Assembly (NCBI GenBank): GCA_030549335.1
Contig: CM060189.1
Span: 33,317,001 to 33,381,000 of the forward strand
DNA length: 64,000 nt
DNA from: Pontederia crassipes
Lineage: Eukaryota; Streptophyta; Magnoliopsida; Commelinales; Pontederiaceae
Direction: 5' to 3'
Part shown: one piece after another, positions 30,279-64,000 of the stretch
Position numbering within the stretch: position 1 is the stretch's first letter
Layout: the number at the start of each line of letters is the position of its first letter
The notes under the pieces: model-generated
The model's database searches: none
Seen by the model: the letters and a program-made list of their open reading frames with translations, nothing else
What the model was told of the DNA's origin: nothing
Position numbers and translations under genes: made by a program

Positions 30279-30421
30279 AGAAGTAAAGATCGTGTCCGTT
30301 GAACAAAATGAACGGCTGCGATAAAAGCATTAAAGAGCTCACCGTTAGATAGACGCGCAACGGCTAGGATGACGTCTCGGTAGCCTCCTTAGCAAATGCG
30401 CTAAGGAGGGACTCTTTTCCC
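30279..30421. repeat. Right terminal inverted repeat of the MULE
   Basis: Reverse complement of the left terminus 24733-24875 with the same length and only scattered, mostly transition, differences. Confidence 0.92.
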
Positions 30422-40900: not shown

Positions 40901-43900
40901 ATGATTATCTCACTCACTAGTCATTTCTGTCCCTAAAAGAAATAAAAAAAAATCAATTCTTTCTTTCAAATTAGAAGAGGATTGTTTTGTATAATTCAGA
41001 ACTTGAAAGTTTTAAAGAAAGAAATAAAGTACACAGATGAAGTGTTGAAGGCCCAAGGATACTTAAGAAGTTGATTCAAAAGAGAACATGAGATGGAAAT
41101 AAGCGAGGAATGAAGATGAAGTTGGATTCTCCTAGAAGTTTTAGAACAGGAAATGTGGCGACATGAAGTTGACTCACTTTTTGTGAAGAAACCTTGTAAA
41201 ATGAATTTTCCTGCAATTGCACAAAGTATTTCCTATCATGATTAATATAATTAAGAATTTAAATATATATACATATGTATATTTATGAGGCATATTAGCG
41301 TGCAATCACAAATTTGTGTCTTGGGCCATCAAATCAAAATGATGGCGATCCAAAGATTCAGTGATTGCACGGTGCAATCACAATTTGTGATTACACACTA
41401 ATTTAACTATATATATTTTATATTATAATGAAGGATTTCATTATATATCTTGTGCGCTCATTGGTTTCTTTTAAGTTTCTCTTTACTCATTAAATCTTAG
41501 GTTTGGAAAGTTTTGTATAATTTGCTGCTACACTCCTGTCATTTAAACCGATAACATCTGTCATGGTATTTAGGGCATTCTATTTTTAGTGATAATTTAT
41601 TATTTTGCAAGTATTTGGTTGCGTATATACTTTGAAAGTGAAGGATTTTACAATAGCTGTGCTGTGTTCTTTCTATCATTGAAGAAAATACTCATAGAGT
41701 AATTAGTCATTGGAACAGATCCAATGAATGTTTTTTTAGAAATGACAGATCCAAAAAACTGAAATGAATATTCCCTGAAGGGACTGAAAACTAGTATAAA
41801 ACCTGAAGTAACTTGGTAAAAGTGCTATTGCATTAGACAATGGTCGAACTCTTGTATCGAGTTGGAAACATTATCTCTCACACAGTCCTTTTGGGTTTGT
41901 AGGATCTCGTCTAACTCTTCGAGTGATCATGATCCGTCTGTTTTAGTAAATGGACATTTTGATAGCGCTCTTGGTTCCCCTGGTGCGGGCGACTGTGGTT
42001 CTTGTGTTGGTATGTATCCTTAGCTCAGTGCGCGTTCTTCTGTACATTCTGTTATCATCAACTATCCTTTAATGATTGGACACTTTTATTTCTCCAGCAT
42101 CAATGCTTGAATTAGCACGACTTATTGTTGATACCAACTGGATTCCACCTCGGCCCATCATCTTTCTATTTAATGGTGCTGAAGAACTCTTTCTTTTGGT
42201 AACAAGCTATAATTTACTTAATGAAATACTATATAGGCATGTTACAGTAATGCTCCATTCTTCCATTTTAGGTTGTATTATTGTTATATTGTTTTAGGAG
42301 TATTTTTTATATTTCTTTTTACTTTCTGAGGGATTGTTGTGTCCCTAGACTAAAGAGTTATTCTGGAAAGGCACGCTTGATTCTAAGCTCATGCTAAGAT
42401 CTTAGTGTAGAAAAAAAAGCCATGCATGCAATGTAAACTCTATGCCAAGATCTTAGTGTAGTCCGCTAAAAAAAAAAGATCTTAGTGTAGAATAGAGTCA
42501 TCAGTCATGCATGGCTGTATCTCAAGACACCGCTCGGATGAGTTCAAGAGCGATGTGGGGGTCTGGACGTTTGGCTATTTCTCAACATGAGGGTTATATT
42601 GACTATTTTATGGAGCACTGCCTCAGGCACAATCATATCAGACTACCGATAGATCTAGCGAACTCACAACCACCTCGTAGTCAAGATCTTTGCTTGGCTT
42701 ATGAGGATAGACAAAGTCCTCACTAGAGCCTACAAGGTGAGGTGGGCACCTAGTAGAGACACATCTTGCACGTGTTGAGAATGGAGAGGACATTGTGCAC
42801 TTTTTCTTTGCGTTCCACATATCAGCACAAGTATGGCAACATGCCAAGGAATGATTTCCTTGTCCATGAAGAACACCCGGCGTGGCCTTAGTTTCTTCTC
42901 CCTCGAAGAGTCTATGCACCCTAGGAACACTCGATTTGCTTAAGGCACAATGCCTTCGTCAAATTTCTAAATGCACAGCACAACAATAGCAACACAGAAG
43001 CAATACGGAGAAAATGCAGTTTTATTTCACTCTGGCATTGCGCCAAACACTTAGCATTCAAATAAATGATAAGGCTTGGTGCAGTCCCAACTGACATCTC
43101 TGTGCCACTAAACTCATTCAAATTTCAATGCTCTAGTACAAAACCCAACTAGTTTGGCTGCATTGACTACCATCTGCTTGGCGCCTGCATGTCACCAATC
43201 GCTGTGCGTGCCAGTTATTACTGTCGCATCCTTCAAAATGGTCTTGTTAGCCATGCCAATGCATGGGCTGCGTGAACCATCTGCCGCCGATGCCCCATAA
43301 GATGCATACTCACCCACAAGGATGTCTCGTCAGTGTTGCACCTGCTTGGCGAGCAACTGCCTGCCCCACATCCAATGTCACACACCGATGTGGCGCACCT
43401 GCAACTTGGCAGGGTGCTCGCCTGCTGCTGTCTGCAGGGCGGCCATTGATGTTTCCTGTTGTGCGTCCAGCTACGTGCAGGGCGCTGCACCCGCCAGCCC
43501 TAGTGAGCCTTCACGTTAAGGTCACAAAGCGGACCACCTTCTCCTCTTAAAAGGCTTGTGACAAGGAGCAAAATGGTCATCAGATAGAAAAAGATCAGAC
43601 TCGATTTATCTACTGCCCCTCTTTCAGTGGCCATCTCTTGGAGGTTCCCAGAAATAAGATGTAATGGAAGCTTCGATCTGGTCGTGACGTGAAACCTCCC
43701 ACCCGGCACCATGAGGCAGTCAATGTGGTTAGTCGTCCAGTGACAACAGTTGGCTTGGCGTACAGGTGGAAAACATTGTGTTGGCATCCCCCTTCCTTGG
43801 CAATATCTATCAAGAGTGTTTCTGCCAATGGACTTCCACCTTCCCATCCACCTCTTGATGATAGCTCCATGCAGCCATCTCCTCAGTGGTGAAGTCTCGA

Positions 43901-46900
43901 AGGTTCTCCATCTGATCTAGACAAGAAATGGCAGCCAGTGACTCTGATCGCTGTTGCTCCTTGTCCTCTCGAATCTACCCCATATGTTTCCTAATGAAAT
44001 CTCGAAGTGGGGTGAGGTGAGTTGCTAGTCTCTTGGCTGCTGAAATAGAATCTGGGGTGTGGAAACACTGCTGACCATTAGCTGTTTAAATCTGTCTTGC
44101 TTAAAAAATTAGTCAGGTGCTCAAAAATGGTTGTTGTATACAAATTTATGAGGCCACATAAGGTGTTAAATAACTTATGATTAGTTGTCTTACATGCCAT
44201 TCAATATACTATGAGAACAAACAACAACAACAACAAAGCCTTATCCCCACTAGGTGGGGTCGGCTACATGGATCATACGACGCCATATTCGTTGATCCAT
44301 GTTCATGAGATTCGATAGAGTTTTACGCTGGCTGTGGGGGCCTAAAACAACCCTCCTCCTAACACAACCCTCCTCAATATACTATGAGAAACGAATTACA
44401 AATATGATGTGAGAGATTGGCCTTGTAAGGTGGATTGTACTTTTTTTTAATGAAGGAAAGGATGACTTTGAGGCATGGTTAGTCATGTAATTGAAACAAA
44501 AAATTGCGACATGTACAAGTGTTTATATTTTGAGCAAAAAAGCAAGAAAAGAAGATTGGAAGTTGGTATGTCACTCTACAGAAAAAAGACTACCCCCACC
44601 CTACCCCTCTCCCCCACCGCACACATCACTAATAGGAAAAGAGATGCAAGATGCGATGTATAATGTTCTCTGTTTAGCACCTTTCTCTCCAAAAAAGAGT
44701 ACGGTTATGTTGGAGCCAAACAATTCAAGGATCACTAGAAGCATAGGATATCTCCATGATTGATTCTTTAGAGGTTTTTTGTATACATGTTTGTGGAGAT
44801 GTAAGGAAAAAAGATTCAATGTTTTTTGGTGCAATGCAAAACCTTATTTCACATTCTGATATACCTTTTTTTTGAAAGAAAGTAGAGTGTCAATCTTTTT
44901 GTAATAAGGCAAAACAAGCAATTTAAAAGTGTGCATCAAAGAGCTACAGAAAACTGAAGCTCCCCAAACCAAAACAAGATCTATACAAATCCCACTCGCT
45001 AGTAAAAAAATGATGCGTTACATACAATATTTTCTATATGGCATTTCTCCCTTGGATTGTGCAGTTAAACTTCAGTTAGATCGCCCATGCTGTGGCCAAG
45101 GATGCAGCGCATGATCATCAGCTCCCTGATTTGTCCTGCACAGCAAGTGCTCTCAACAAGTCCCCAAAAGTATATGCTCCAGATGCGTTGATGCCAAAGG
45201 GTTTGTCCCTAATGGCGGCATGCCCTTAGGAGAAATGGAAAAAAGGTAGTCAGTGTTCTTCGCCGAACCACATAGTGTGCATGTGGGATCTGCACGTGGT
45301 CCTATATGCTCCAGTGAGGACTTCATCATGCCTCAAGAGCCAAGATCTTGATTTTGTGTGGTGTGCAAGTGCCATACACGTGTGTAGTTAGATTTGTTGT
45401 TGTCTACGTTGTGCCTCCTGGAAGCAGCTGTCAGGAGACACCTTAGACGAGTAGTGATAAAAAAACCATATCCGACTTTTCTCTCTAGAGTCGTCTGGAT
45501 GGTTCAGATCCAACCAAGTAACATAAAGAGCTTAGTGAAATGCTGATCTCACAATCCGGACTTAAACAGTGGGGTCCATGAGCCTCCTCCCGATGAGCTT
45601 GGTGCTGATCAACACTCACTAATTGTCATTGCTGGAGTTGCCTAAAGTGCTAGTGCCACCTGGCATCCATTTGTGGTTCTTGAATCTCTGTGGTAACTAA
45701 TGATTCCACTTGTTTCACATTCTGTCACAACCCAACAAGTTTGCACACATGAGTTTTTTTTTTTTGAAACGAAAAAGGACGACCAGCAGGACACGGATGG
45801 GTTGCAGGTGGATTAATGTTCAAGCAGAAACATCTTTCTGGACATCACTTAGATTTGGTGGCACAGTACACACACAGACTTATTCATCTAAAAGCTGACT
45901 GATAGAGCCATTTTCTCTTCTGTTGGCCTTTTGGTCACAAAGAAATGCTTGCATCTCTCAAGGGGTCTAGTGGTATGTTGAGAATAATATCAGGCGGCTT
46001 TAGTAGCTTTGTATTATGCATGGAGGGTGTCAGTAAATGCAACATGGAACTTCTTTGTATACTGGTGTAAGGCAAATATGTATATATACACACTAAACAG
46101 AAATAATATTTGATGACCATACACCTTGATCTTTTTATAGTGAGATATGTATATGGATGACAACCACAACCTTGGGTAGTCATCCTTTTCCCTCTCAGAA
46201 AAAAAATTGGATGACCGTATAATTGGCAGTCATTCTTTTCTCTGTCAAAAAAATATTTCTTTGGGAGAAAAAAGGCCATCTAAACTGTGTCCACTTTGAG
46301 TGTATGACCAACACATTACATAATACGTAAAAGATCATGAACATTATTGGTAGGCTATCAATGTTGGATAGAACACTTCCTTTATGGAGTTAAATATGAT
46401 GCTCAATTGGGGGATAATCTGTTTCCAGATTTATTTAATTTATAATAACAAGAATCAGGTTTATTGTCAATTGTTCAGCTTATTTCTTGCTACTGTTCAC
46501 AGTTCACAAACTAGAGACAAGGTACCTCTTTCATTAGATAATTGTGCTATTTGTAGATTTTTTTTCTGTTATCATTGATATCTGTAACATTCATCAAAAC
46601 TAGAAAGTGCCGGACAAATGAAACTTCTAAAGATTGGTTTTGAAAGGGAACCTGTAAAGGGTATTACTATTTTTTATTAATAATTTGCTGCTTTCTAAAT
46701 TCAATTGGCATTGTTACTTAGTGTTGTGCTCCTTATTACTTGTGGTTTATGCACAAGAAGTGGCTCCAGATTTTCTCAAGTATAGGCCAACCAAAAGACT
46801 ATAATTGGCTTTTCTTTTTGAAAAAGGAGGCTAATTAACTTTGAAACTCCAGGGTTCTCATGGATTTTCAAGGACACATAGATGGAGCGAGTCGATAGGA

Positions 46901-49900
46901 GCTTTTATTAATATTGAAGCATCTGGAACTGGTGGTTTTGGTATGAACTTTTTTTTCCATACTGTCTCTTGTTTTAGCTTGGTAAGTTTGAATTCCCTTA
47001 TCCAATTAAGAATTGGTTCATGTTTAAAAATCCTTCTTAAGTTGATAAAGGCGAAAATAATATTGTTGGGATTAGTAAAGCGCAAAATACCTGAATATTG
47101 TGAAGCACATTAATAAATTTGGCTAAGAAACTACACTGGATTAATTATGTATATAGGGTGAAGTAGCCAATTTAAGAAACATTATCTAGATAACAAGCTA
47201 TCTTTCTTAAATAAAGTTCTTCAAATATTGCCCTAAACACAATCCTTTGATAAGCATGGTTTAGGAGCGAGTTGTAAGAGGAGATCGCACGACGCACCCC
47301 GCCTTTGGCAACCCCTGCCGGCGGCGTCACCCCCCGCCTCCGGCAACCTCTGCCGGGGACGCCATCCCCCCGCCTCCGGTAGTCCTTGCCGGTGGCGCCA
47401 GAAAAACCGCTCTGCCTTTACCGCGTGATTCAGGATGCGGCCAAGGTTGAAGCAGCTCAACGATTGCTGGACAGCCATCTCCTGCTGCCACTCATTGCTT
47501 CAGATGTCTGGGAGAGGGCCATCTAGCGCGCTCCTGTTCGGCACCCTGCGCTGCTACGCATGTGGAGGAGAGGGCCACCGTCGGGCAGCCTGCCCACACA
47601 CGCGCCGGAGAGTGCCAACCGTGCATGCTGCTGTCGCTTCACCGCCTGACGCTGACGAGAGAAATAGGGCACTCACCACTGTTTTCGTCCCGTGTGTCAC
47701 TCCTGCCCACTGAAGGGCGCGCCCCGAGCGGGCGTGGCCATGCGCGCGAGGAGGCGGGCGTGGCCGGGGCGATTCCTACTCCTAGTAGGAATAGGAGTCG
47801 TCCAACACTCCGAAGGTCCGACGAGGAGGGAGGAGCTTTTGGAGATGAAGACTTGGACTCCTATCGTGAGTAGGAGGACGAGCGCGTGGAGAAGTGCAGG
47901 ATCGGAAGGATTCCTACTCCTAGTAGGAATAGGAATTCGGACCTCTCCTAGGTCGAGTAGGACTTGGGCACGGACGGAGCTTCCTTCTGGATCGAGGGTC
48001 ACTTGGAGATGAAGTCCTAATCATAGGAGGACTGAAGATGGGGAGAGGCCACAGGAAAACAGTCCTAGTCCTAGTAGGACTAGGACTTGTCCCGGCGGGC
48101 GCACCCGGGGCGCGCCCCGGACATGGCAGGGCGCCAGGAGGGCGGCCTGACCAGTTTGCCTTCAAGATGGACTTTGAAGGAGTGCTGGCCGAATTCTTCT
48201 AGGACTCCAAGGTTGCTGGATTTCTACTCCTACTCCAAGGAGGTTTTTTCTAGAGAAGGGCTTGCATGCCTAATAGGATTAGGTCCTTAACTTAGACTAG
48301 GAGTTGTTTCTCTTGGGCACTATAAAAGGACATGTAATCAAGGCTTGTAGGACCATCCTGGACAATCTGAGATTGCTCAATAATATTCTCTAGTTTTCCT
48401 CTAAACTCTTAGCCTCCCTCTCTTCTTCCTGGGCGGGTGTTTCGTTGTGCATCCGGGGCGTGTACGGCCAGGGTCCAAGGCACGTCCAAACGAGGGCTGA
48501 TCGGCGACCGAGCAAGGTTCGTCGAGCCGCACGTCTGGTGTTTCATATCCGAAGCGTAAGGGCGTGACAACGTGGTATCAGAGCCTAGGTTCCGACTATG
48601 TGAGGAGAAGAAGGTGCTTCGAGCAAAGGCCGTTCGATGGAAGCTGAGGACACGACCCGGGGTCGAGTCCAAGGTGCGGACGTTGGGGAAAAGAAAAAGA
48701 ATACGCGAGCAAAGTCCAGAGATCCCGGCAACCATATTGAGAAGAATATGGAGGCGCTGGAACGAAGTCTTCAGGAAACGGACGAGGCGGTCCGTATCTT
48801 GGAAGCCGCGGCAGGAGAACACAGCTTGGCACTGGAGCAAGGAGGAACCTTACACCAGGAGCTGTCCAGCCGCGTTGCAGCCATAGAGGAGGCTATGGAT
48901 GCAAGGTGGAAGGCCATGGAGACAGATTTGTTGCTGCTCAAAGGTCTTCTCTTCGATGCAGGAGGGCTGCGATCGAAGACCCCGGTGCCCAAGTTCTTGG
49001 GACCGGAACCGAAGAAATATGATGGTGCGCGGGAGGCGACGACCATCGACGATTTTCTTTGGTGTCTTGAAAAGGGTTTCAAGACGAGCAAGATCGTGGT
49101 CGAGAAGGACCAGATCGACATGGCCGTGCGCTACCTGGTGGATGGTGCGCTCTTGTGGTGGCGTCGGATGGAGGAAGGAGACGAGACTCCGATAGAGTCT
49201 TGGGCAGACTTCAAGGTGGAATTGAAGAAGCAATTCTACCCCGGCAATGCACAAGAAGTGGCTATGAACAAGCTGACCTCTCTCAAGCAAACGGGTTCCG
49301 TGAAGGAATATATCGAAAAATTCCAACCGCTTATGTTGGAGATGCCCGGGAGCATGGAGGAGTCGACATGGTTGTTCTTCTTCCTGCGGGGGTTGAAACC
49401 ATGGGCGGCTCAGGAGTTGAGACGTCAGAGGATAACGACCATGAACGGAGCATTGGTCGCTGCTGAAGCTTTGGTGGAGTTTTCAGCAAACTGGGATCCT
49501 GGCGCGGGTGCTAAGGATCAGGGCAAGTCCAAGAAGGACGGAGCCCGAGCAGGTGGCAAGAAGAACGATAAGCAAGAGAAGAAGGCGACGACATCGAAGG
49601 GAGATGCCAAGAAGACGGTCAGATGCTTCCTTTGTGGAGGGCCGCACTACGCGAGGGAGTGCGACACGAAGAAGGGGCTCTCGACCATGGCATCTACCGT
49701 GGACACCGAGCAAGGCGCTGCACACATGGGGTCTATAATGGCGCTGACGACTGCTGCCGCAATGCTCCCGACGAAGGAAGTGAAGAAGACCGCGAAGGGC
49801 CTGATGTTCGTGGAGGTCGCAGTGAATGGCCACACTTCGACCGCTCTGGTTGATACTGGAGCCACGCACAACTTCATGGATTCAAGGGAAGCGGCACGAC

Positions 49901-52900
49901 TTGGCATACGGTATGTCAAGGAGCCAGGCCTGATCAAGACCGTGAACGCGGCCTCCCAGCCAATCCTTGGTACGGCCAAGGATACCCACGCGAAGGTGGG
50001 GGAGTGGGAAGGAGCGATCACCATGACGATCGTCAACATGGACGACCATCGGTTCGTCCTGGGCATGGAGTTCATGGATGCGTTCCGTGAGGTGAGACTT
50101 TCCTAAGAGGGGATTCGTTTTTTATCTCAGGAAGCTTCGCATGAAGTTGCCACGACGAGGGCCAGCGTGAAGTCCAAGATGCTTTCGGCGATGCAACTTG
50201 ATAAGGGCATACGCCGGAAGGAGGTCACCTACTTGGCTGCCTTGAAGTTCAACGAGACCGGGCTCAAGGTTCAAGGCGTCCCAGAGGAAGTGGAAAGGCT
50301 TCTGGAGCAGTACAAGGATGTAATGCCGCCAGAACTGCCGAGCAGACTTCCTCCTCGCCGAGATATCGATCACGCCATCGACCTGGTGCCAGGTGCGAAG
50401 CCTCCGGCTATGGGGCCGTATCGCATGGCACCTCCGGAGCTGGAGGAGCTTCGGAAACAACCGAGCGAGTTGCTGAAAGCTGGGTTCATGGGATCCTCGA
50501 AGGCACCCGGTGGGGCGCCGGTCCTACTTCAGAGGAAGCAGGATGGGTCAAGGATGAACAAGATCTTTCACCCACTATTGGACAAGTGCGTGGTGGTGCA
50601 CTTGGGCGACATAGTGGCATGCTCGGAGAAACTCGCAGAGCACATGGAGCATCCCGGGGAGGTGTTCAGGCTGCTGCGAGAGAACGAGCTCGGGGAATGC
50701 TCGTTCGTCCAATCGGAAGTGATGTTCCTTGGGCACCATATTAAAGCCGGGAAGATCAGCATGGACGAGGGGAAGGTCCAAGCTATTCTCGACTGGGAGC
50801 CGCCAACGAACGTTCCGGAGATGCTATCGTTCTTGGGACTCGCCAACTACTACAGAAGGTTCATCGAGGGATACTCGCGACGGACTGCGCCCCTCACCGA
50901 CCTTCTGAAGAAGAACGCGAAGTGGGTATGGTCAGAGAAATGCGTGAAGGCATTTGAAGGCCTGAAGAACGCAGTGGCGGAGGAGCCGTGCTTGCGTCTA
51001 CCCGACTACGGGAAGCCGTTTGAGGTGCAAACGGACGCTTCCGACTTCGCATTGGGTGGTGTCCTCATGCAGGAGGGACACCCAGTGGCCTTCGAGAGCC
51101 GGAAGCTCAACGAGGCCGAGCAACGATATCCGGTCCATGATAAGGAGATGACCGCGGTGGTGCACTGCTTGCGCACGTGGAGGCATTATCTTCTTGGGAG
51201 CGCATTCGTTGTGAAGACGGACAACGTAGCAACATCTTACTTTCAGAATCAGAAGAAGCTGAGCCCGAAGCAGGCACGATGGCAGGACTTCTTGGCGGAG
51301 TTCGATTACGTCTTGGAATATAAGACGGGGCGGACCAACGTGGTGGCCGATGCCCTAAGTCGCAAGGTGCAGCTTGCGACGATAAGCGCCATCCGCATGG
51401 ACTTCAAGGATCACATCCGGGAGGGATTGAAGCAGGATCCTAAGGCTCTGGAGATGCTTCGACTTGTCGGGGAGGGCAAGTCACGACGATTCTGGACAGA
51501 AGATGGGCTGTTGTTCACAGTGGGACGTCGGTTGTACGTGCCACGATGGGAGGGTCTTCGACGGTCGATATTGAAGGACTGTCACGACTCGAAGTGGGCG
51601 GGCCACCCGGGAGCGGCTCGTACCTTGGCGTTGGTTGAAGACTCCTACTTCTGGCCTCAGATGACAGAGGATGTCGAGGCATATGTGAGGACATGTCTCA
51701 AATGTTAGCAGGACAAACTTGAGCAGAAGAAGCCGGCAGGGTTGCTAGAACCCTTGCCCGTACCGGAGCGTCCATGGCAGATGGTGACTATGGACTTCAT
51801 CTCAGCCTTGCCTAAATCTGGGGGAGCGGGATCGATCATGGTGGTGATCGACAAGTTTTCAAAGTATGGAACCTTCATCCCGGCTCCAAAGCATTGCTCG
51901 GCGGAAGAGGTCGCCCGCTTGTTTGTCAAGCATGTAGTAAAATACTGGGGCGTACCTGAGATCATCGTCAGTGATCGTGATCCGAGGTTCACGGGTCACT
52001 TCTGGAGGGAGCTCTTCCGGCTCCTGGGGACGGAGCTGCGCTTCTCGACAGCTTTCCACCCCCAGACGGATGGCCAAACGGAGCGGGCCAACCATCTTCT
52101 GGAAATCTACCTGAGGCACTTTGTTGCAGCCAATCAGGAGGATTGGGCAAAGCTCTTGGACGTTGCACAATTTTCGTACAACATGCAAAAGAGCGAGGCG
52201 ACGCAACAAAGCGCGTTCGAGATCGTCACTGGGAGGCAGCCAGTGACACCTGCAGGACTGGCGGCCAGGTACGCGGGGAAGTGTCCGGCGGCGTATCATG
52301 TGGCGCGTGGTTGGCAGGACAACCTCGAGGCGTCGAGGGCCATCTTGGATAAAGCGGTGCGCAAAATGAAAAAGTTCGCTGATCAGAAGCGGAGGCATGT
52401 CGAGTTCTAGGTGGGAGACAGGGTTCTTGTGAAGTTACGAACATGTCAGTTCAAAGCACTTAGGAACTTGCACCAAGGATTGTTGAGAAGGTACGAGGGT
52501 CCCTTCGTCATCACCAAGCGAGTAGGCACGGTGGCCTACAAGGTGGATCTTCCCAAAGAACTGCGACAGATCCATTCAGTGTTCCACGTGAGCATGCTGA
52601 AGAGATTCTACGAGGATGCAGAAGACTCTAGGCGTGAAGTGGAGACACGTGGATTAGTGAACGACATGAGCACACCGACAAGTTCAAGAGGCGCACCGGA
52701 GTTGCCGGGGACGGCAACAACTTCGGTGGGGGAGGATGTCACTCCTGCCCACTGAAGGGCGCGCCCCGAGCGGGCGTGGCCATGCGCGTGAGGAGGCGGG
52801 CGTGGCCGGGGCGATTCCTACTCCTAGTAGGAATAGGAGTCGTCCAACACTCCGAAGGTCCGACGAGGAGGGAGGAGCTTCTGGAGATGAAGACTTGGAC

Positions 52901-55900
52901 TCCTATCGTGAGTAGGAGGACGAGCGCGTGGAGAAGTGCAGGATCGGAAGGATTCCTACTCCTAGTAGGAATAGGAATTCGGACCTCTCCTAGGTCGAGT
53001 AGGACTTGGGCGCGGACGGAGCTTCCTTCTGGATCGAGGGTCACTTGGAGATGAAGTCCTAATCATAGGAGGACTGAAGATGGGGAGAGGCCACAGGAAA
53101 ACAGTCCTAGTCCTAGTAGGACTAGGACTTGTCCCGGCGGGCGCACCCGGGGCGCGCCCCGGACATGGCAGGGCGCCAGGAGAGCGGCCTGACCAGTTTG
53201 CCTTCAAGATGGACTTTGAAGGAGTGCTGGCCGAATTCTTCTAGGACTCCAAGGTTGCTGGATTTCTACTCCTACTCCAAGGAGGTTTTTTCTAGAGAAG
53301 GACTTGCATGCCTAATAGGATTAGGTCCTTAACTTAGACTAGGAGTTGTTTCTCTTGGGCACTATAAAAGGACATGTAATCAAGGCTTGTAGGACCATCC
53401 TGGACAATCTGAGATTGCTCAATAATATTCTCTAGTTTTCCTCTAAACTCTTAGCCTCCCTCTCTTCTTCCTGGGCGGGTGTTTCGTTGTGCATCCGGGG
53501 CGTGTACGGCCGGGGTCCAAGGCACGTCCAAACGAGGGCTGATCGGCGACCGAGCAGGGTTCGTCGAGCCGCACGTCTGGTGTTTCATATCCGAAGCGTA
53601 AGGGCGTGACACGTGGTACCCGTCGATTCAACGGTCTGCAGAATTCCTACGCTCTTGCCTCGTCGGCGAACCCACTGGCACTCCACCGGACCTGTCGGTC
53701 CTGCACACGACAATCGTGGTGGGTGTCAAACTCTCCACCTTTTCATTTGAGCCGTGTGACACGCTCTGGCTCCTAGTGCTTGGGTCGACACAACAGTGGG
53801 ATGCTCTCTTGGCAGCGCTGTCGTTTGTGTCGTCGGAGGTCCAGGTGCATTGGCGGCCCTGGAGAGAGGATAATGGTGCTGTCCCGGCGTCGCCAGCGTC
53901 CAGGTGCACGATCGACATCTAGGGCCTTCCGCTGCATCTCTTGCAGTTGGACGTCATCCTAGCGATTACATGCTTTGTGGGTAACCCCATTTCCCTATCC
54001 CTGCCGGTGGCGGGTTCGCCTGATCTTTCTGCCGTTTCCATAGATGTCGCAATACAGGCCGGAAGACACCTCCCATCTTCGGTCATTCTGAATGCCGTCA
54101 CAAGTAGTTTCCTTCTACGGCTCCGGCGTGCAGGACCCGTCTGATCGTGGGCAGACGTAGTCTCCGGCGTCGCCTGAGGCGTCTGCAGCGAACAGTAGGG
54201 CACGATCGTGCTCTCCTCAACAACTGTACAGGGCCACATGGGAGAAGGACACATGAGGAATGGACAACTGTAATTCAAAACACCCTTATGCAAGCTCATC
54301 AATCTCCTAAATCAGCATACCTGGTCCCTTGGGGACTCGTTTGCAGAGGCTTTCCCTCCCCTCTGGCCCTGACGACATTTCCCGAGGCCACAGTAGCAGA
54401 GACTTGGATAGAGGAGGGAGGGCCGGGATCTGGCGCTTGGTCACCCGGTTTCAGATCACACCTATTTGATCAGTGCTTCACAGAGTTTTTGGCCCTTTAG
54501 CAACGCATAGCAGGTCTACGCCCGGACCGGTCCAGGATGGACGGATGGGTCTGGCTATTGGAGTCCTCCACACGGAGTCTCTACATCCGCTTCCTCCCCA
54601 CCAACACTTTGACAGAGGACTGACTGCAGACTCATTTGGCGCACTCGGATACCGCTGAAGGTCAAGATTTTGCTTGGCTTCTCACCGAGTTACAAGGCGA
54701 GATGGGCACCACATAGTGACATATCACGCGTACTGTGCGGCGAGTCAGTGGAAGACATCCCCCACCTTTTCTTCAGTTGTCTGACATCTCGGGGTATATG
54801 GCAGTGGATGAGCATCACGAGCCTCCTTTCTTCAGACTTAGAGAGCATGTGGTAGACATTTCGGGGACTCATACGTGTTGGAGAGCTCCATTGGGGACCT
54901 TTGTGGCCGGTGCTTGGGTCATTTGGCTGTAGCGCAACCGGATCATCTTTTGTGGGGAGTGCTGTTAGCCGGAGTGTGTTGTACACCACATCTCCTTTCT
55001 TATCAGGGAGTGGGGTTTTGGCTAGCTTGGAGATTTCTTTTATCTTCTCTCAACCTTACTACATTTGTCACTATTTTTGACAGCAACAACTCTGGTGGTC
55101 ATCCTTTTCCTTCTCAGAAAAAAAAATCTCGTAAATCCAACCATAACCCATCTCAGAACAGTGAACCCTACCCAAAACCACACCCAGTTGCAATCTCACG
55201 TATCCAATTCACACGCAAGCTCGCCCACTCACAACCTCATCGTCACCCTACCGTATCCGAACCCCACCACAGCAAACCGAACTCAAACCAACACGAACCC
55301 GATCCCAACCGGAGGCACAGCCGACCCAAACCCCCTAACCAGATCCAGGCGCACCCTGCCACCCCGTCATCAGCCCAATCCATCATCTCTCCCACCTCCT
55401 TAGCAGCCCTGTCTGCCAGCGACCATCCCACCAGCGCATCGTCGCTACAGCGGAACCCATCTACTACCTTGACCTCACCACCAAAGTCCACTTCCAGACA
55501 CCTCGCCCTCCCTGACTCCCTGAAGCCAGCCGGGCGTCACCCCTCGGTGGTCGGACGCTCTTCCCTCGGATGACGACTCCCGCCAGGCGACCGCTGCATG
55601 GGACCGGCCGCGGGTATACAAACAACAACAGTCTAGGCGTGCAGCTGAGCCCTCGCAGGCTTCGCCACAGAGCGTGGTGCAGTCGGACGCCACGACTGTG
55701 GCTCTGCTGGCAGCGCGGCAGGGGCCATGGCTGGTACAGGGCGCACCCGACAAGACTCGGATACCCTCACCAGCATCGTCCATGTCCACCCCTGCTGGTG
55801 GTCACTCCAGTGGTGCGGAGCAGGCGGTCAGTGAGCCAACCCTACTCATCGGCCTCCCGGATGTGGGGGTTCTGGAGGTGGCAGACCTCGCTGATTTAAG

Positions 55901-58900
55901 ACTGGTACGCTGACACACTTGGACACGGCCTGGTGCCCCCTGGCGACCTCTTGGGGTGCGCCGACCACATTAGCGGTTCATCATGCTCTCACGGTGGGGC
56001 ATAAGGCGGAGGACGGTTGTGGGTAGTGGCTCACCCACATGCGAGGCAGCCACGGTTTTCTTATGAAGGTGCAGACATGGAATGTTCACGGCCTTGGCGA
56101 GGAGGGAAGACACCGAACTCTCGGCCGCTATATTCGGGAATGAGAAGCCGATGTAGTTTTCTTGTAAGAAACCAAGCTGGTGGAGTGTGATACGAGGATG
56201 TGGGAGCAAATTGGTGGCTCCCGTCTCTCTCAGCACCTAACCCTTAGCTCGGTGGGCTGTTCGAGCGGCTGCATCATTGCCTGGCGGCCCAATCTATTCA
56301 CCTTGGAGGGCTCTTGGACATTGGACAGCTTGTTTCTCGATGACTGTCCAGTTGAGGCGTTGCTCCGACGGTTCCTCGTACCTCCTCACTTGCGTCTATG
56401 GACTTTGCTCAGAGTCCCTTCGGGTCATCATGTGGGAGGAACTCACGGCTGCCCGCATGCACCTTTTGGAGGCTTTAATGTAACATTGGACATGGAGGAT
56501 TGCCCCATCAGACAACAAGGGAGAGACACTTGAGCAGAGGAGTTTAGAGACTTTTATTGATTTAGTTGTCGTCAGACTTCCCAGCGACATATTGCAGATT
56601 CACTTGGTGGAGCACAACGACACCTTCATCTAGATCGCGGATTGACCGATTCCTCGGCTCTGTCGAGCTGGTCGAGGCGCACCAACTAGCAGATGTCTGG
56701 ACCACGGATCGTCCATTTTCGGACCGCATACCCTTTTTGTGGAGCCGAAATGGACCGCGAACTAATAGAGCAAGAACTATTAGTGAATAATATACCGAAA
56801 GGTTTGGTTACTAATAGAGCGGAATGGCGTCGTATGATCCATGTAGCCGACCCCACCTAGTGGGATAAGGCTTTGTTGTTGTTGTATACCCTTTTTGTGG
56901 AGGTCCAATGATAGTCAGCCCTTGTGCTCTATCTTCTGCTTTGAGTGCTCCTGGCTGGCTGCAGACGTGGTGGTGGAGCACTGGCGGAATGTGGCGGCGT
57001 CCGACTCCGCGGCATGGACTCTTGCCTCTAGGCTTCACAGCTTGGGTTGGCGGACTGAGGCATTGGAGGTGATCGCTCAGCTTGATGGGGAGGACTCCTG
57101 CCACCTCACGGAAGCTGAGGTGGTGTAGCGACGGGCTCAAGGCACCATTAGTTGGAGGACAAGAAGGTGGAGATCCAGAGGAGGCAACGCTCCTGGCAGA
57201 CCTAGCTTCATAAGGGAGATACCAACACTCGGTTATTCCACCTATATGCGAGCTCGCGGCGGCGGGCAAACCGGATTGACCAACTGGAGGTGATGGGACA
57301 TAAGATCACGGGTCGCCACTGCATCGGGGCTGCCATCGCCTCCTTCCACAGTGACTTCTCCAAGCGGCGGCCCCCGTTGACTTGGGTGATCCCCTAAGGG
57401 TATTAAAGCAGTCTTCCATGTTAGTGCAGACCATTACTTAAGGCGAGGTCACCGACGCGCTTCGGGACCTCAATGGCGAGGGGTCCTCCGGCCCAGGTGG
57501 CTTCCCATTCTTCTTCTATAGGGAGTTCTGGTTCTTGGTGCGTGAGGACGTCATGGCAGTGATCCACGAGTTTTCGAGTGGAAACTGACACTTTGAGCAC
57601 CTAAACCGGTTCTTGTTATTCATGCTCCCCAAGCGCACGCCGGCGGAGAGAGTGGAGGACTTCAGGCCGATTGCCTTATCCAATGCTATTTATCTTATGA
57701 TGGCTCGTGTATTGGCCAATCGACTCCGGGAGGTGCTTTCCGACCTCATCCACCCAACATAGTCAGCAATCATCCACGATCAGTCCATCACATACAGCTA
57801 CTCCATGGCCCTTGAGATCATTCCACACTGGAGGCGAAACATGCGACGAAGCTTTCCTCTGGAAGGTTGATTTCTTTAATGCATATGATTCCCTCTCATG
57901 GTCCTTTCTTTGGTACTCAGACTCTAGTTTGATTGGATGAAGCAGTGCATTATTACTGCTTCTTTCTTAGTCCTGGTCGATGACGGGGGGTTGGGTGCAA
58001 CCGCAGAGAGGAGTTCATCATGGGTGCCCCCTCGCGCCCATGCTCTTCACATTGGCAGTTGATGGCCTCGCTAGGTGCACTCAGGAGGCATGCGGGCCGG
58101 CCTCTTCAGCGGCTTCCGGCGGACTGGTGCCTCTTTGTTTTCTTCGTGGAGGGATTAGAGCAGGAGGCCAGACGCGTGGCCATTTTGGTGGAGCTTTTTG
58201 GCGACGTCAGGCCTCGAGATCAACCATGCCAATTCATCTTTCATCCCGTTTGGCATGGTGATAGAGGACACATTTGGCTGCGAGGCGGCGCTTCGCACGC
58301 CGGTTGTTCACTTACTTGGACCTCCCTCTCTTAGATCGTCATATTGGTTCTCGGAGGTGGACCCCGATTATCGAGCGCTTGGAGCACCGACTTCAGGGGT
58401 GGAGCTCATGGCTTCTATCGAGTGGGGGTCGCCATGTTTTGTTCAAATAAGTTCTCTCATCACTCCCGACATATTTCATGTCAGTTCTCTGGATGCCCAC
58501 TCAGGCATTGGCCCGGATTGACTATTTGAGGAGTAGGTTCTTTTGGCAGGGATGTAGCGCCACCCGATGGGTCCATTTGGTTGCTTGGTAGTGCATATGT
58601 AGGCCCACCACACAGGGTGGTTTGGGCGTCTGGGACCTACGCGTCACCAACAAGGCACTCCTTGCCCGGTTGGTTGGAAGTTCGAGGCCAGCTTATGGAG
58701 GGAGGGTTTTTTCACATGTTAGGGCAAGGATCTATCATGGTGCTCCAGACCTATCCCACCCCGAGGTGCGTCTTCATTTTGGAGGGGTGTGATGGCGTTT
58801 TTCCCCGGGTGCGCCCCTTTATGACCTCATCACATGGCTCCGGGGAGGTTTTCTCATTTTGGCAGCACGACTGTGGGCCTTAACAGCACATCCCTAGACA

Positions 58901-61900
58901 TTTGTGGTGGAGTGCTGGTCCGAGAGTGGCGGTCCGGGCACCTGTTCCTGGACTCCCCTTTTCAGCTCTCCACTTTCTGACCAACATTTTTCGGAGTTAT
59001 TAGCTCTTCACCAGAGGAATGCTCCCCTTTGTCTGGACCCGACACGGATTGATGGTTGGATTTGGCTTGACGGACTCATTCTCAGCCCGTGGACTCTATC
59101 TTTGCCTTCTTCCATCCACCTCAGATACGGGGGACTTGAGAGCGGATAGCAGACTCATTTGGTGTTCTCGGGCGACGCTGAAAGTCAAGATATTTGTTTG
59201 GCTTTTGCGGCGTGAGTGGATTCTCACCAGTGTATACAGGGCCTGATGGGCACCCCACATAGATACGTCCTTTATGTGGGGAGATGGAGGAGGATGTCAT
59301 CCACTTATTTTTCGATTGTCAGGTGTCCCGAGAGGTATGGTCTCGGACGACTATTGCGGATTTCATTCCTATGGCAGTTGACAATTTTTGTTGGCTTTGA
59401 GGGGTCTTGGCAGACAGAGACAGGGTTGGAGAGTTCCATTGGCGACCTTTTTGGCCGGGGCCATTTGGTTACAATGCAATCGTATTATTTTTTGTGGGGA
59501 GAGGTGCCAGGTGGATAGTATTTATTTATTTATTTATTTATTTTTTTGAGGAGAAAAAGGATGACCACAAGAGTTGTGGTTGTCATCCATCTATATATAT
59601 AACTGTGAACTGAAGTCATGTACAAAGGTGAGCTCTCAAAGGGAGAGCAACGTCAAAAAATAAGGAGTATCCTAGCTAAACAAGACCCCACTTCTGGATA
59701 AGAAAAAGGATGTGGTGTACAATGCGCTCAGACTGATATCTCTCCCCACAAAAAATGGTCCGATTGCGCTGAAGCCAAATGGCCCAGGCACCGGCCAAGA
59801 AGGTCGCGAAAGACGCTCTCCATCCCTGTCTCTGACGGGCTAAACCACGAAGGGAGTGCCACACAGTCACCAAACCCGATGAGAAGAGGCCCGCGATGCT
59901 GGTCTGCTGCCATATGCCACGAGAAGTCGGGCAGTAGTAGAATAGATGGGTGATGTCCTTCGCCTCGTCACATAGTACGCAAGATGTGTTACTGTGAAGC
60001 GCCCATATCGCCCTGTACCGCCTAGTGAGAAGCCGTCGCGCCGTAGAAGCCAAGGAAAGATCTTGACTTTCAACGGCACACGCAACCTCCATATAAGTCT
60101 GCAGTCAAAACTGAAATCCTCTGGCAGAGTGATGGGCGGTAGGAAACGAATGTAAAGGCTGCGCGCTGAGAAAGACTCAGATAACCAGACCCAACCATCG
60201 GGTCTGGACTGATCCGGGCAGAATGGAGAGATCCGCTGATGAAGTGTCAAGAGCTCCGCAAAACGCTGATCAGAGAGGTGTGATCTGAAGAGTGGAGACC
60301 AGGAACCCGAACCTGGGCCACCATCCTCGGCCCATGTCTCCGCTACCGTCGCATCAGGGTCCGCCGCGAGGGCCCATAAACGGGGGAACACCTCAGCAAG
60401 GGAACCTCCGAGGGCCCAGTCGTGCCGCCAAAAGGAGAAAACTTCCCCCGAGCCAAGGGAAGGAACCATCAGTGGGCGGACCCGAGGGATCTGCGCCACT
60501 CCACGCCAAAAGGATGAGGCCCCGCGTGGCAGAATGGTCCTAGAATCCCAGGAGAGATCACGTCCATAACATATGTAGAAGACCCTGCGCCATAGCCAGG
60601 TGGATAGTATTGTACATCATATCCTTTTTCTTCTTTGAGAGTTGGGTTTTGATTAGTACTTGTACCCTCTTTTTTGCCGCTCTCTTCTGGAGAGCATATC
60701 AATGTACATGGTGCCTTTTTTCACTGATATATATACACGTGGATGACAAACCGAAACTAGTAGTCATCCTTTTCCTTCTAAAAAAAACATTGCCCTAAAT
60801 CCTTTGTCCCTAAGCCTTTTCTTTTTGAAAGGGTAAAGGATGACTGCCTTGGCCAAACCATCCAATTTTTATGTCTTAATGACTATATTACATGGGATCC
60901 TTACATGTTGGAAATCAGTTGCTCAACCACTCTTTCACCATATTGTTCGCTAGACATATAATATTTTCAACATAGCCATGCAATGCAAATAGTTGAACCC
61001 ATAGCGGAATCCATGCTGCCTTGTTATACTGCAGTCAATACACATATCAGCATCATCCAGTCGGTTCTCATTGTCTTCACTGTCCTTATCCATGCATCTT
61101 GTCTAGTGATATCAGCAACCTTACCTTCAAGATTTCCCATAAGGAGCAAGTCATTCACCTATTGTGATCTGATCGTGATGATACAAATTGGGGAGTCGAG
61201 GTGCCACCAGATAACATGGTTCCTGTCCAATAATTTTCGATAAGAGCATGCTTATTGCACTATGGCAAAGTGTCTTGGAAATAGTCTGGAAGGGGGGATC
61301 CATTGGCGGCCAAGAATCCTCCCAAAACATAAGCAAGCACCAGAATCCAAAGATGCTATGAAGAAAGGCTGTAGACTATGAACGTGATGACATCAGTACA
61401 ACCACCCATTAGTCAGACTATTCATTTCACAAGCAGTGCATCATTCGCAGGCTTCCCAGTCCACTTTCTAAAATAGGTCTACATAAGTTAGACCATGACA
61501 CTAGGTGAATACCTAGACCAGGAGTGTTGGGATGCCACCAAAGGAATCTTTGTTTATGTGTATCAATACATTACATCACTCCATGAGGCATATGAAAAAT
61601 CGACATATAGTACACTGGTGTAGCAGATAAATGCCGATTTTACCAAAGCCAATCCTCCTCCTCTTGAAAGGAGCTTTCAGCACCAACCTTCCAATCTGCG
61701 TTCAACATGTTCTACAATCGAAATCTAGTCCGGGCCAAAACTTTTCTATTGACTAATGAAAGGCCAAGTATGGGAGGGGAAGACTATATATGGTAATCAG
61801 GAGCTTTTTTTTGAGAGTGGTGATCTGGAGCTCCAATGAACATTTGTGTGCAAGAGGAACACATCTATTTTCTTTTGAGACTTCTTTGGGACTAGTGCTG

Positions 61901-62398
61901 GTTTGCTGCATTATTTAAATTTTAGAGAAAATAGTAGTAATGGTTGTTAATTTGAAAGATCTATAAACATCAAACTAAATTTGATAATCAGAACAGTAAG
62001 TATCACTGGTTTCCTCTTTCAAGACTCTTCCTGTTCAGCTAAGATATGTGTGTAACACATAAATGTTAACCAAAACTTTATTTTGAGGAGTGTTAATCAA
62101 GAAACTTGACTTGCATTGTTCTTTGTAAGAAGGATAAAAGAAAGATTTTAGTCTATATCCTCTAAAAAAAAAGATTTTAGTCTATAATGAAACATATTGT
62201 CTATTATGTTCCAGGACATACATGATCGTGTCTGACAAAGCTGCTTGTAACACTGCTTATCATTTGCTTCTAATTTTTTTGTTTCACTAACTTAACATCT
62301 AACTAACAGATTTAGTTTGCCAATCTGGACCTGGGTCTTGGCCATCTCATGTTTATGCTCAATCAGCGAAATATCCAATGGCAAATAGTGTAGCACAG
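37953..62398 (+). CDS. ER metallopeptidase 1-like M28 peptidase, first 7 exons (partial)
   Basis: Zinc-dependent exopeptidase of family M28, probably an ER membrane protein like ERMP1. Exons: 37953-38159, 38277-38362, 39948-40049, 41903-42009, 42098-42198, 46853-46940, 62310-62398. All junctions are GT-AG, phases join, and the total is 260 residues; the family's usual length is 800-900, so the rest lies beyond the window. A membrane segment (about residues 10-33) follows MGRGAADGAAF. The peptidase region shows metal and catalytic residues GHFD (H150, D152), GAGDC (D162), NGAEE (E196, E197) and NIEASGTGG (E223), then CQSGPGSWPSHVYAQSA. The exon 7 acceptor at 62309 was chosen over the one at 62315 because it keeps the family's Asp-Leu before VCQSG. 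Intron 6 is 15369 bp and full of transposons. The coding part looks intact. Confidence 0.92.
39126..39235 (-). mobile_element. Au-type SINE copy in peptidase intron 2
   Basis: On the plus strand it reads ACAACAACAACAAAGCCTTA, a CTAGGTG-GGCTACAT block and ATTCGTTGATCCATGTTCAT, the reverse complement of the Au SINE 3' half. It is very similar to 44225-44340. The 5' tRNA-like part is not evident. Confidence 0.75.
40445..40628. repeat. 97-bp tandem duplication in peptidase intron 3
   Basis: Units start at AAAGTTTTAGATG (40445) and again at 40542. The second copy differs from the first at only a few positions. The duplication keeps a short frame open (40455-40670), which I do not regard as a gene. 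Confidence 0.85.
41294..41402. mobile_element. 109-bp inverted-repeat MITE-like element in intron 3
   Basis: The left arm ATTAGCGTGCAATCACAAAT and the reverse complement of the right arm (ATTAGTGTGTAATCACAAAT) pair with two differences, and the arms extend a little further inward. TA-rich DNA flanks both ends. A second internal copy of GTGCAATCACAA near 41373 adds to the symmetry. No coding capacity. Confidence 0.6.
42510..42930 (+). pseudogene. LINE 3' fragment with zinc-binding domain, intron 5
   Basis: Plus-strand translation over frames gives a VVKIFAWLMRIDKVLTRAYK-like block followed by CTCVENGEDIVHFFF. This is the zf-RVT signature, closely related to the LINEs at 54314-55124 and 59050-59520. 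Ends are unclear and frameshifts are present. Confidence 0.65.
42931..44060. other. GC-richer unclassified block in intron 5
   Basis: Higher GC than the surrounding intron, with overlapping short open frames on both strands and no recognised domain. The composition suggests a decayed transposon (LTR or gag-like), but no terminal repeats or motifs were found. Confidence 0.35.
44222..44340 (-). mobile_element. Au-type SINE copy in peptidase intron 5
   Basis: Reverse complement of the Au SINE 3' half: CAACAACAACAAAGCCTTAT, then CACTAGGTGGGGTCGGCTAC, and ATTCGTTGATCCATGTTCAT upstream in SINE sense. A CCCTCCTC-AACACAACCCTCCTC direct repeat lies just beyond its 5' side near 44350-44375. Confidence 0.78.
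44439..44505 (-). mobile_element. LINE-tail-like segment, intron 5
   Basis: A T-run followed by GAAGGAAAGGATGAC and a partner TAGTCATG forms the family hairpin in minus orientation. No flanking duplication was resolved. Confidence 0.45.
44861..45720 (-). pseudogene. Truncated LINE 3' end, intron 5
   Basis: Begins on the plus strand with a T-run (3' tail of a minus copy). Minus-strand translation gives CTLCGSAKNTDYLFSIS, a zf-RVT-like cysteine block, near 45270. Multiple stops; the 5' end is not defined. Confidence 0.6.
45750..45815 (-). mobile_element. LINE-tail-like segment, intron 5
   Basis: T-run, GAAACGAAAAAGGACGACC and a partial hairpin. It resembles other LINE 3' ends in minus orientation but is diverged. 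Confidence 0.4.
46150..46255 (+). mobile_element. Two LINE 3' tails in series, intron 5
   Basis: Plus-oriented. First: GGATGACAACC ... GGGTAGTCATCC, then TTTTCCCTCTCAG and an A-run (about 46154-46206). Second: GGATGACCGT ... GGCAGTCATTC, then TTTTCTCTGTC and an A-run (46209-46252). The head-to-tail order suggests one insertion at the tail of another. Confidence 0.6.
47227..47249. repeat. Target-site duplication of the parent LINE, left copy
   Basis: ATTGCCCTAAA, then CACAA, then TCCTTTG. Without CACAA it equals the right copy at 60789-60806. It marks the 5' end of the LINE at 47250. Confidence 0.75.
47435..47694 (+). pseudogene. LINE ORF1 part with CCHC knuckle, cut by the gypsy element
   Basis: Contains a CCHC zinc knuckle, CYACGGEGHRRAAC (47552-47593), an RNA-binding module of LINE ORF1 or Gag proteins. 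The frame continues to FVPCV at the gypsy insertion point, and VPVDSTVCRIPTLLPRRR-like sequence resumes at 53612. The open frame ends inside the LTR only because of the insertion. Confidence 0.6.
47695..48569 (+). repeat. 5' LTR of the gypsy element
   Basis: 875 bp, TG...CA. U3 carries palindromes TTCCTACTCCTAGTAGGAA at 47773-47791 and 47911-47929. It also has a larger inverted repeat at 48061-48087 with 11-bp arms AGTCCTAGTCC. TATAAAA lies at 48321-48327, so transcription probably starts about 25-30 bp downstream. Confidence 0.95.
48321..48327 (+). promoter_or_regulatory. TATA box of the 5' LTR
   Basis: TATAAAA in GGGCACTATAAAAGGACATG, about 250 bp before the LTR end. The same element is at 53363-53369 in the 3' LTR. 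Confidence 0.7.
48573..48590 (+). other. Primer-binding site, initiator Met tRNA type
   Basis: TGGTATCAGAGCCTAGGT starts 3 bases after the LTR end. TGGTATCAGAGC is complementary to the 3' end of plant initiator methionine tRNA. Confidence 0.9.
48637..50106 (+). CDS. Gag-protease of the gypsy element (489 codons)
   Basis: Particle protein and aspartic protease. A Gag core region (residues about 115-290, with FLWCLEKGF, ALLWWRRME, WADFKVELKKQFYP and LFFFLRGLKPWA) is followed by a basic Lys-rich linker and a CCHC knuckle CFLCGGPHYAREC near residue 330. An aspartic protease site ALVDTGATHNFMD follows near residue 405. The frame stops with TAA at 50104-50106, but the same frame continues directly into pol, so the stop probably replaced a Gln codon in an originally single Gag-Pol frame. 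The first ATG that opens the frame after the primer site was taken as start. Confidence 0.85.
   Translation: MEAEDTTRGRVQGADVGEKKKNTRAKSRDPGNHIEKNMEALERSLQETDEAVRILEAAAGEHSLALEQGGTLHQELSSRVAAIEEAMDARWKAMETDLLLLKGLLFDAGGLRSKTPVPKFLGPEPKKYDGAREATTIDDFLWCLEKGFKTSKIVVEKDQIDMAVRYLVDGALLWWRRMEEGDETPIESWADFKVELKKQFYPGNAQEVAMNKLTSLKQTGSVKEYIEKFQPLMLEMPGSMEESTWLFFFLRGLKPWAAQELRRQRITTMNGALVAAEALVEFSANWDPGAGAKDQGKSKKDGARAGGKKNDKQEKKATTSKGDAKKTVRCFLCGGPHYARECDTKKGLSTMASTVDTEQGAAHMGSIMALTTAAAMLPTKEVKKTAKGLMFVEVAVNGHTSTALVDTGATHNFMDSREAARLGIRYVKEPGLIKTVNAASQPILGTAKDTHAKVGEWEGAITMTIVNMDDHRFVLGMEFMDAFREVRLS
50107..52755 (+). pseudogene. Gypsy pol: RT (deleted), RNase H, integrase
   Basis: Same frame as gag. 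RT begins normally (YKDVMPPELPSRLPPRRDID, APPELEELRKQ, GGAPVLLQRKQDGS), but about 80 residues that normally follow are absent. KQDGSRM runs straight into NKIFHPLLDK. The catalytic YLDD block reads HLGD. RNase H is complete in outline (TDASDFALGG, HDKEMTAVV, VKTDN, VVADALSRK). Integrase keeps the zinc-region histidines and one CxxC, then DFISALP, SDRDPRF and HPQTDGQTERAN, so the DDE residues are present. A C-terminal YEGPFVITKRVG ... HVSMLKRFY domain follows. In-frame TAG at 51706-51708 and 52408-52410 each fit a mutated CAG. The natural end, TGA, lies inside the 3' LTR. Confidence 0.92.
52725..52736 (+). other. Polypurine tract
   Basis: GGTGGGGGAGGA directly before the 3' LTR start; it contains a single pyrimidine. 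This is the usual primer for plus-strand synthesis. Confidence 0.8.
52737..53611 (+). repeat. 3' LTR of the gypsy element
   Basis: 875 bp, identical to the 5' LTR except at seven positions, all transitions. The palindromes recur at 52815-52833, 52953-52971 and 53103-53129. Confidence 0.95.
53612..54313 (+). pseudogene. LINE ORF1 continuation of the parent LINE
   Basis: Resumes after the gypsy insertion. Frames read across stops give an ORF1-like run (LPLHLLQLDVILAITCFVG), similar in pattern to the DUF4283-type region of plant LINE ORF1, around 53920-54000. It ends at the insertion point of the truncated LINE. Confidence 0.5.
54314..55124 (+). mobile_element. 5'-truncated LINE inside the parent LINE, same direction
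   Basis: Flanked by a 13-bp direct repeat with one mismatch: AATCTCCTAAATC at 54301-54313 and AATCTCGTAAATC at 55125-55137. Content: TVAETWIEEGGPGSGAWSP-like end of RT, a WVWLLESSTRSLYIRFLP block, zf-RVT remnants and HLAVAQPDHLLWG. The hairpin tail (CTGGTGGTCATCC) and TTTTCCTTCTCAG plus an A-run follow. Related in sequence to the LINE copy at 59523-60594. Confidence 0.78.
55138..56062 (+). pseudogene. Parent LINE, ORF1 C-terminal part and inter-ORF region
   Basis: Pro/Ser/His-rich coding-like sequence (55138-55573) followed by GC-rich DNA up to the endonuclease start. A long open frame here (54875-55573) begins in the truncated LINE and crosses its tail, so it is a chimeric artefact and not a gene. 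Confidence 0.5.
56063..59505 (+). pseudogene. Parent LINE ORF2: endonuclease, RT, zinc-binding domain
   Basis: ATG at 56063 opens KVQTWNVHGLGEEG, the start of an AP-type endonuclease. It then reads VVFL-stop-ETKL, where family members have Gln. RT follows from about 57430 (GSSGPGGFPFFFYREFW, RPIALSNAIYLMMARVLANR) and ends with INHANSSFIPFG near 58215; the YADD region is frameshifted. The zinc-binding domain (LKVKIFVWLLRREWI, IWLQCNRIIFCGERC) lies at about 59170-59510. A SINE interrupts at 56745-56885. Many stops and frameshifts; not functional. Confidence 0.8.
56745..56885 (+). mobile_element. Au-type SINE inside the parent LINE
   Basis: 141 bp ending GTAGCCGACCCCACCTAGTG, GGATAAGGCTTTGTTGTTGT. 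It is flanked by a perfect 17-bp duplication, ATACCCTTTTTGTGGAG, at 56728-56744 and 56886-56902. Shorter than a full Au SINE (about 180 bp or more), so probably 5'-truncated. Inserted between the endonuclease and RT parts. Confidence 0.9.
59523..60594 (-). mobile_element. 5'-truncated LINE inside the parent LINE, opposite direction
   Basis: 1072 bp, flanked by a perfect 17-bp duplication GCCAGGTGGATAGTATT at 59506-59522 and 60595-60611. The 3' tail at 59523 is an ATTT-type repeat on the plus strand. The hairpin GGATGACCACAAG ... TTGTGGTTGTCATCC lies at about 59558-59588. The insert splits the parent LINE just after its zinc-binding domain. Confidence 0.92.
59676..60499 (-). pseudogene. LINE ORF2 C-terminal end with zf-RVT domain
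   Basis: Two overlapping minus-strand frames (60499-59867 and 60092-59676) join by one frameshift. They carry ATVAETWAEDGGPGSGSWSP, LKVKIFPWLLRR, CVLCDEAKDITHLFYYC and AWAIWLQRNRTIFCGERY, ending QKWGLV-stop. This is the zinc-binding domain and end of a plant L1-like ORF2. It is the best preserved LINE coding end in the window. Confidence 0.85.
60612..60788 (+). mobile_element. 3' end of the parent LINE after the inserted LINE
   Basis: Continues from the duplicated target into a 3' untranslated region with ATATATATACACGTGGATGAC. The hairpin arms GGATGAC and GTCATCC follow, then TTTTCCTTCT and an A-run ending at about 60787, directly before the right target-site duplication. Confidence 0.8.
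60789..60806. repeat. Target-site duplication of the parent LINE, right copy
   Basis: ATTGCCCTAAATCCTTTG directly follows the A-run of the parent LINE and matches 47227-47249 apart from a 5-nt insert in the left copy. Confidence 0.75.
60815..61760 (-). pseudogene. Another truncated LINE 3' end, intron 6
   Basis: Minus-oriented: starts on the plus strand with CTTTTTGAAAGGGTAAAGG and a hairpin GGATGACTGCC ... AAACCATCC. Minus-strand translation gives FWEDSWPPMDPPF near 61310 and an AWIPLWVQLFALHGY-like block near 60970, typical of the region after RT in plant LINEs. It is more diverged than the other LINEs here; the 5' boundary is approximate. Confidence 0.65.
61761..62309. other. End of intron 6, no feature seen
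   Basis: AT-rich intron sequence with a short direct repeat AAAAAAAAGATTTTAGTCTATA-like near 62140-62185. No gene or transposon end recognised. Confidence 0.5.
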
Positions 62399-63639: not shown

Positions 63640-64000
63640 ATTCTGCCCAACTAAAGGTGTCGCCGGCCTCGGTGATGTCGATCTGCCCTTCATGGCTGCT
63701 GGTGCGTTCATATCATTGACCGGGCCTCTTATCTCGGCCGCTCTTGAAGGGTCTTCCATGTCTGTGTGGTAGTTCTTTAGCATACTCACATGGAAGACTA
63801 GATGAAGTTGCTTCAAGTGTCGGGGAAGATCCACTCTGTAGGCCATCTTGCCTACTCTCTTGGTGATGATGAATGGGCCTTCATACCTCCTCAATAGCCC
63901 TTGGCATACCGACACCGACACCGACTTGACATGGCATTTCGGCTCGCGGTACGCCATCCCCTCCACCGTTTGCTTACTGTCCCCCGGGCCAGCGTCGGTA
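63640..64000 (-). pseudogene. Integrase C-terminal region of the second gypsy element
   Basis: Open minus-strand frame from the window edge to 63622. It contains GLLRRYEGPFIITKRVGKMA, YRVDLP, QLHLVFHVSMLKNYH and GPVNDMNAP. These match the homologous end of the first gypsy element (LLRRYEGPFVITKRVG, FHVSMLKRFY) at most positions. It is a fragment only because of the window edge; whether the element is intact cannot be judged. Confidence 0.8.

Follow-up and report, generated by a model that had tools for sequence, protein, structure and literature searches.

Background

The nesting of retrotransposons in plants is the subject of a review (PMC12477314). It is routine among grasses, where 36 of 132 LTR elements are nested in another (PMC1560396). 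According to Ohshima 2013 (PMC3747384), the RTE LINEs of flowering plants have (TTG)n or (TTGATG)n at their ends, the tobacco TS SINE has an RTE-like tail, and Au-like SINEs end in T tracts. Here we describe a group of five retrotransposons within one intron of a 64,000-nucleotide stretch of Pontederia crassipes DNA, called the window below, whose own numbering is used for all coordinates. In our reading one parent LINE was interrupted by four later retrotransposons, and we give this nesting a probability of roughly 0.9.

The host intron and the parent LINE

The group lies in an intron of an M28-family peptidase gene on the forward strand (46941..62309, 15,369 bp), which has GT...AG ends and interrupts the M28 domain. 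The upstream exon, ...SGTGG(F), ends at 46940, the downstream exon, (D)LVCQSG..., starts at 62310, and the two join in frame. When the joined exon peptides are searched, a Pfam Peptidase_M28 match spans the exon junction (profile 9-130, E 1.2e-27), which confirms the placement of the transposable elements inside a peptidase-gene intron in the preliminary description of this DNA.

The parent is a degraded L1-type LINE on the forward strand (47250..60788), recognized by its domains, A-rich end and flanking duplication. It is made up of the pieces 47250-47694, 53616-54313, 55138-56744, 56903-59522 and 60612-60788, with the four inserts between them. By arithmetic, 5,547 bp are left once the inserts, each with one copy of its duplication, are subtracted, in agreement with the single parent of about 5.5 kb that had been proposed. 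A Pfam search of the three forward frames of the first four pieces finds LINE domains ordered along them. The first, zf-CCHC (47252-47695, E 1.5e-4), is over its curated cut-off and is followed by a weak DUF4283 match (53620-54312, E 0.074) under its own. Exo_endo_phos (55139-56743, E 2.6e-5) has a score equal to its cut-off, and RVT_1 (E 1.2e-4) and zf-RVT (E 0.002), both in 56903-59522, are under their curated cut-offs. The succession of CCHC, DUF4283, endonuclease, RT and zf-RVT is the L1-type order, and it is from this domain set and the A-rich tail that we take the parent to be an L1 element. Its duplication is of the variable-length type. The left copy (47227..47249) is 23 bp long and the right copy (60789..60806) 18 bp, the two being made up of 11 identical bp, a 5-base indel (the extra bases CACAA on the left) and 7 identical bp. 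The 18-bp parent duplication noted earlier is thus present at both borders, although it is imperfect and its left copy is longer.

Four insertions into the parent

The largest insert is a Ty3/gypsy LTR retrotransposon on the forward strand (47695..53611), delimited by two LTRs of 875 bp each (47695-48569 and 52737-53611) and by the duplication CGTG (47691-47694 and 53612-53615). The LTRs differ at 7 sites, all of them transitions (K2P 0.00806), and at a substitution rate of 1.3e-8, as applied in PMC1560396, this distance corresponds to an age of about 0.31 Myr. The gypsy element is therefore young, at about 0.3 Myr. In common with Ty3/gypsy retrotransposons it has gag, protease, RNase H, an integrase zinc domain and the integrase core (rve), with RT-RNase H ahead of integrase and LTRs with matching ends. 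It differs in its incomplete RT core: residues 659-741 of the Ty3 chain 7q5b_A, which belong to this core, are unmatched between two aligned stretches, and no RVT_1 was found by Pfam in the insert. As some 80 residues of this core are missing, the insert is probably non-autonomous in its present state. Outside the intron, a gypsy-like fragment on the reverse strand (63774-63904) is 76% identical to part of this insert and matches Pfam SH3_Tf2-1 (E 3.2e-15).

Two further inserts are 5'-truncated LINEs of the parent's broad family. The one on the forward strand (54314..55124) contains zf-RVT (E 2.4e-6), is related to the 3' end of the parent, and is flanked by a 13-bp duplication with one mismatch (54301-54313 and 55125-55137). 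The other lies on the reverse strand (59523..60594) between perfect 17-bp copies (59506-59522 and 60595-60611); its zf-RVT match (E 2e-5) is under the Pfam cut-off, and it is recognized by its alignment to the parent's own rejoined site. The two truncated LINEs are 67% identical over 761 columns. The fourth insert is a 141-bp element on the forward strand (56745..56885) with a 17-bp duplication (56728-56744 and 56886-56902).

All five elements and the border repeats named in the preliminary description are present, and the four later inserts do carry flanking duplications, which match at 4/4, 12/13, 17/17 and 17/17 positions for the gypsy element, the truncated LINE, the 141-bp element and the reverse LINE, respectively. 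The concern that such repeats might be common by chance can be set against 60,000 random position pairs drawn from 46000-61500, a region whose LTR pair inflates the counts. With 5 bases of slack, 17/17 was reached in 2 pairs of the 60,000, 13 bases with at most one mismatch in 5, and 11/11 in 10; without slack, 262 of the 60,000 pairs shared 4/4. CGTG is weak taken alone because so many random pairs share as much, but its copies stand just outside the matching LTR ends TGTCAC/GTGACA.

The 141-bp element

The 141-bp element had been labelled an Au-type SINE. Its end is instead a (TTG)n repeat, one of the two endings given for plant RTE LINEs in PMC3747384 and not the T tract given there for Au-like SINEs. 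Ahead of the repeat, an open frame of 37 codons (56747-56857) leaves out just 2 bases at the 5' end. It closes with WRRMIHVADPT* at a TAG stop. The best score for pol III A and B boxes is 10/14, which was equalled by 298 of 300 shuffled sequences. On the strength of the (TTG)n end, the nearly complete open frame and box scores at the level of shuffled sequence, the earlier label is replaced: the element is probably the 3' tail of a 5'-truncated RTE-clade LINE. A Pfam search of the element, a scan of its RTE-like tail in viral contigs and prokaryote genome contigs, and a literature text search for the peptide motif IHVADP all returned no match.

It is possible, if unlikely, that the element is after all a tRNA-derived SINE, Au-like or TS-like, with an RTE tail, which would stay near the earlier label. 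A SINE can have a 3' end of about 100 nt and TTG repeats in common with an RTE LINE, as described for tobacco TS in PMC3747384. The element has the size of a SINE, and three more copies of its tail occur elsewhere in the window, of which those at 39 kb and 44 kb have more than the tail in common with each other. Against this reading stand the box scores, which in the three other copies were equalled by 199, 165 and 239 of 300 shuffles, as well as the T-tract ending of Au-like SINEs and the open frame. In the copy at 44 kb the same frame is open over 40 codons despite a 5' part that differs from that of the 141-bp element. The argument from the frame is limited, as the copy at 10 kb is hardly more than a tail and a 4-base gap has cost the one at 39 kb its WRRMIHVADPT* ending. 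The 44 kb copy (44218-44373, reverse strand), which lies in the preceding intron of the peptidase gene, has a perfect 17-bp duplication of its own (44201-44217 and 44374-44390).

One parent or many fragments

Whether the rejoined parent is colinear can be read most directly at the reverse-LINE site. There, the joined parent flanks and the reverse LINE form a single alignment of 1,067 columns (63%, E 1.2e-101), and the same join gives a junction-crossing alignment of 732 columns with the other truncated LINE (60%, E 6.9e-49). Both alignments are gapless at the junction. When the right flank was random, the reverse LINE bridged the join in none of 100 trials and the truncated LINE in 1 of 100. 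The two truncated LINEs therefore serve as empty-site references at this place.

The gypsy, truncated-LINE and 141-bp sites offer less. When the flanks of the gypsy insert are joined locally, zf-CCHC (47252) and DUF4283 (53620) fall in one and the same frame, an agreement with a chance of one in three. Joins of 150 nt from each flank, with one duplication copy kept, have open frames that cross all three sites: 2 at the gypsy site, 1 at the truncated-LINE site and 1 at the 141-bp site. This test has little power because shifted and random joins are often open too: joins shifted by one base were open at all three sites and by two bases at one of the three, and random right flanks from 47250-60750 gave open joins in 232, 144 and 168 of 500 trials in the same order of sites. 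Colinearity at these three sites is thus something we infer from the duplications and the domain order, while at the reverse-LINE site it is seen in the alignments themselves.

The open-frame test also does not separate one parent from a patchwork of independent LINE fragments that lie side by side, with no single element having been interrupted. Such fragments abound in the window, recognized by their tails or by protein similarity near 8.2, 12.1, 21.3, 22.5, 42.6, 44.6-45.8, 46.1 and 60.8-61.6 kb, and the single parent has weak points of its own: its duplication is imperfect, DUF4283, RVT_1 and zf-RVT are below their cut-offs, and an independent reference covers just one of its four sites and not its 5' end. 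We nevertheless reject the patchwork as most improbable in view of the gapless bridge at one site, the duplications at all four inserts, the domains in their order, and the one flanking duplication around the whole.

Order of events

Each of the four inserts lies directly in the single parent and none lies within another, which gives a nesting depth of one. The five-element nested stack of the preliminary description becomes, on this evidence, four independent insertions into one LINE, and a stack five deep is rejected. The parent is the earliest element, but topology does not give the mutual order of the four because none is inside another. The earlier statement that the order is partly readable stands for parent first and the other four later, and goes no further among the four. 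The perfect 17-bp duplications of the 141-bp element and the reverse LINE suggest, but do no more than suggest, that these two are younger than the parent, whose duplication carries an indel.

The most probable course of events begins with the entry of an L1-type LINE into the peptidase intron, presumably by target-primed reverse transcription, at a landing place that adjoins the remnant of a probably older LINE. The parent then decayed and received four separate insertions: the gypsy element, presumably by means of its integrase, a pair of 5'-truncated LINEs in opposite orientations, both of the parent's broad family, and what appears to be a short RTE-type LINE tail.

The adjoining remnant is a decayed LINE on the reverse strand of approximate extent (60818..61630), supported weakly by a tail match (60848-60818, E 0.017) and by tblastn (61630-61493, 37% identity, E 2.4e-6). 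It is probably older than the neighbouring group. A search for its duplication with exact 9-12-mers in 61201-62300 gave only A-rich chance matches.

Accumulation in the window

Tail-bearing copies were counted as nhmmer matches with E of at most 0.05. Outside the parent there are 11 such matches, 8 of L1 type and 3 of RTE type, 6 of the 11 having been used for building the models. That the parent was a preferred landing pad for three element classes is very doubtful: it holds 3 non-LTR inserts in 5.5 kb where the density in the rest of the window predicts 1.2, yet the excess is not significant (Poisson P about 0.12), the expected value rests on 11 tails of which several have weak E-values, leaves fragments without a tail uncounted and is lowered by the exons in its denominator, and an old LINE in an intron is simply neutral space. 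The earlier statement that three classes chose the same target is not upheld, with similar insertions spread through the window. Just as doubtful is the broader proposal that new L1- and RTE-type elements land preferentially in the decayed LINEs of long introns, by which intron growth would feed itself. The similar tails throughout the window and the decayed neighbouring LINE place the parent within a general accumulation.

Other repeats are found in the window as well. The preceding intron contains several decayed pieces of LINEs, some in each orientation (42599-45788), and a very short LINE tail on the reverse strand (12050-12159) is flanked by the 16-bp duplication TATTACTCATGATTGT. An inverted pair of 143 bp (24733-24875 and 30279-30421) is 94% identical and possibly belongs to a MITE family, and two tandem 96-bp copies (40434-40625) are 92% identical.

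Comparison with known systems

The intron is a clear example of growth through repeated retrotransposition, and at one site two of the inserts reveal the uninterrupted state of their own host element. The nesting is readable yet ordinary for plant genomes, and it leaves existing knowledge unchanged. As the 141-bp element suggests, a (TTG)n tail in a plant intron can be given a SINE label though it resembles a truncated RTE LINE.

The parent shares with plant L1-clade LINEs an ORF1 with zf-CCHC and a DUF4283-like domain, followed by endonuclease, RT and zf-RVT, as well as the A-rich tail, 5' truncation of copies and long, variable duplications. No notable difference is seen, and decay prevents the naming of a subfamily. 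The 141-bp element has the (TTG)n end and a coding-like 3' end in common with the RTE-clade LINEs of plants and the tail of the TS SINE described in PMC3747384, and differs in that no more than 141 bp are left. Like the nested retrotransposons of grasses in PMC1560396, the group consists of later elements within an earlier one and can be dated by LTR distance; what sets it apart is that an intronic LINE received the insertions, that all but one of the four inserts are non-LTR elements, and that the nest is one level deep.
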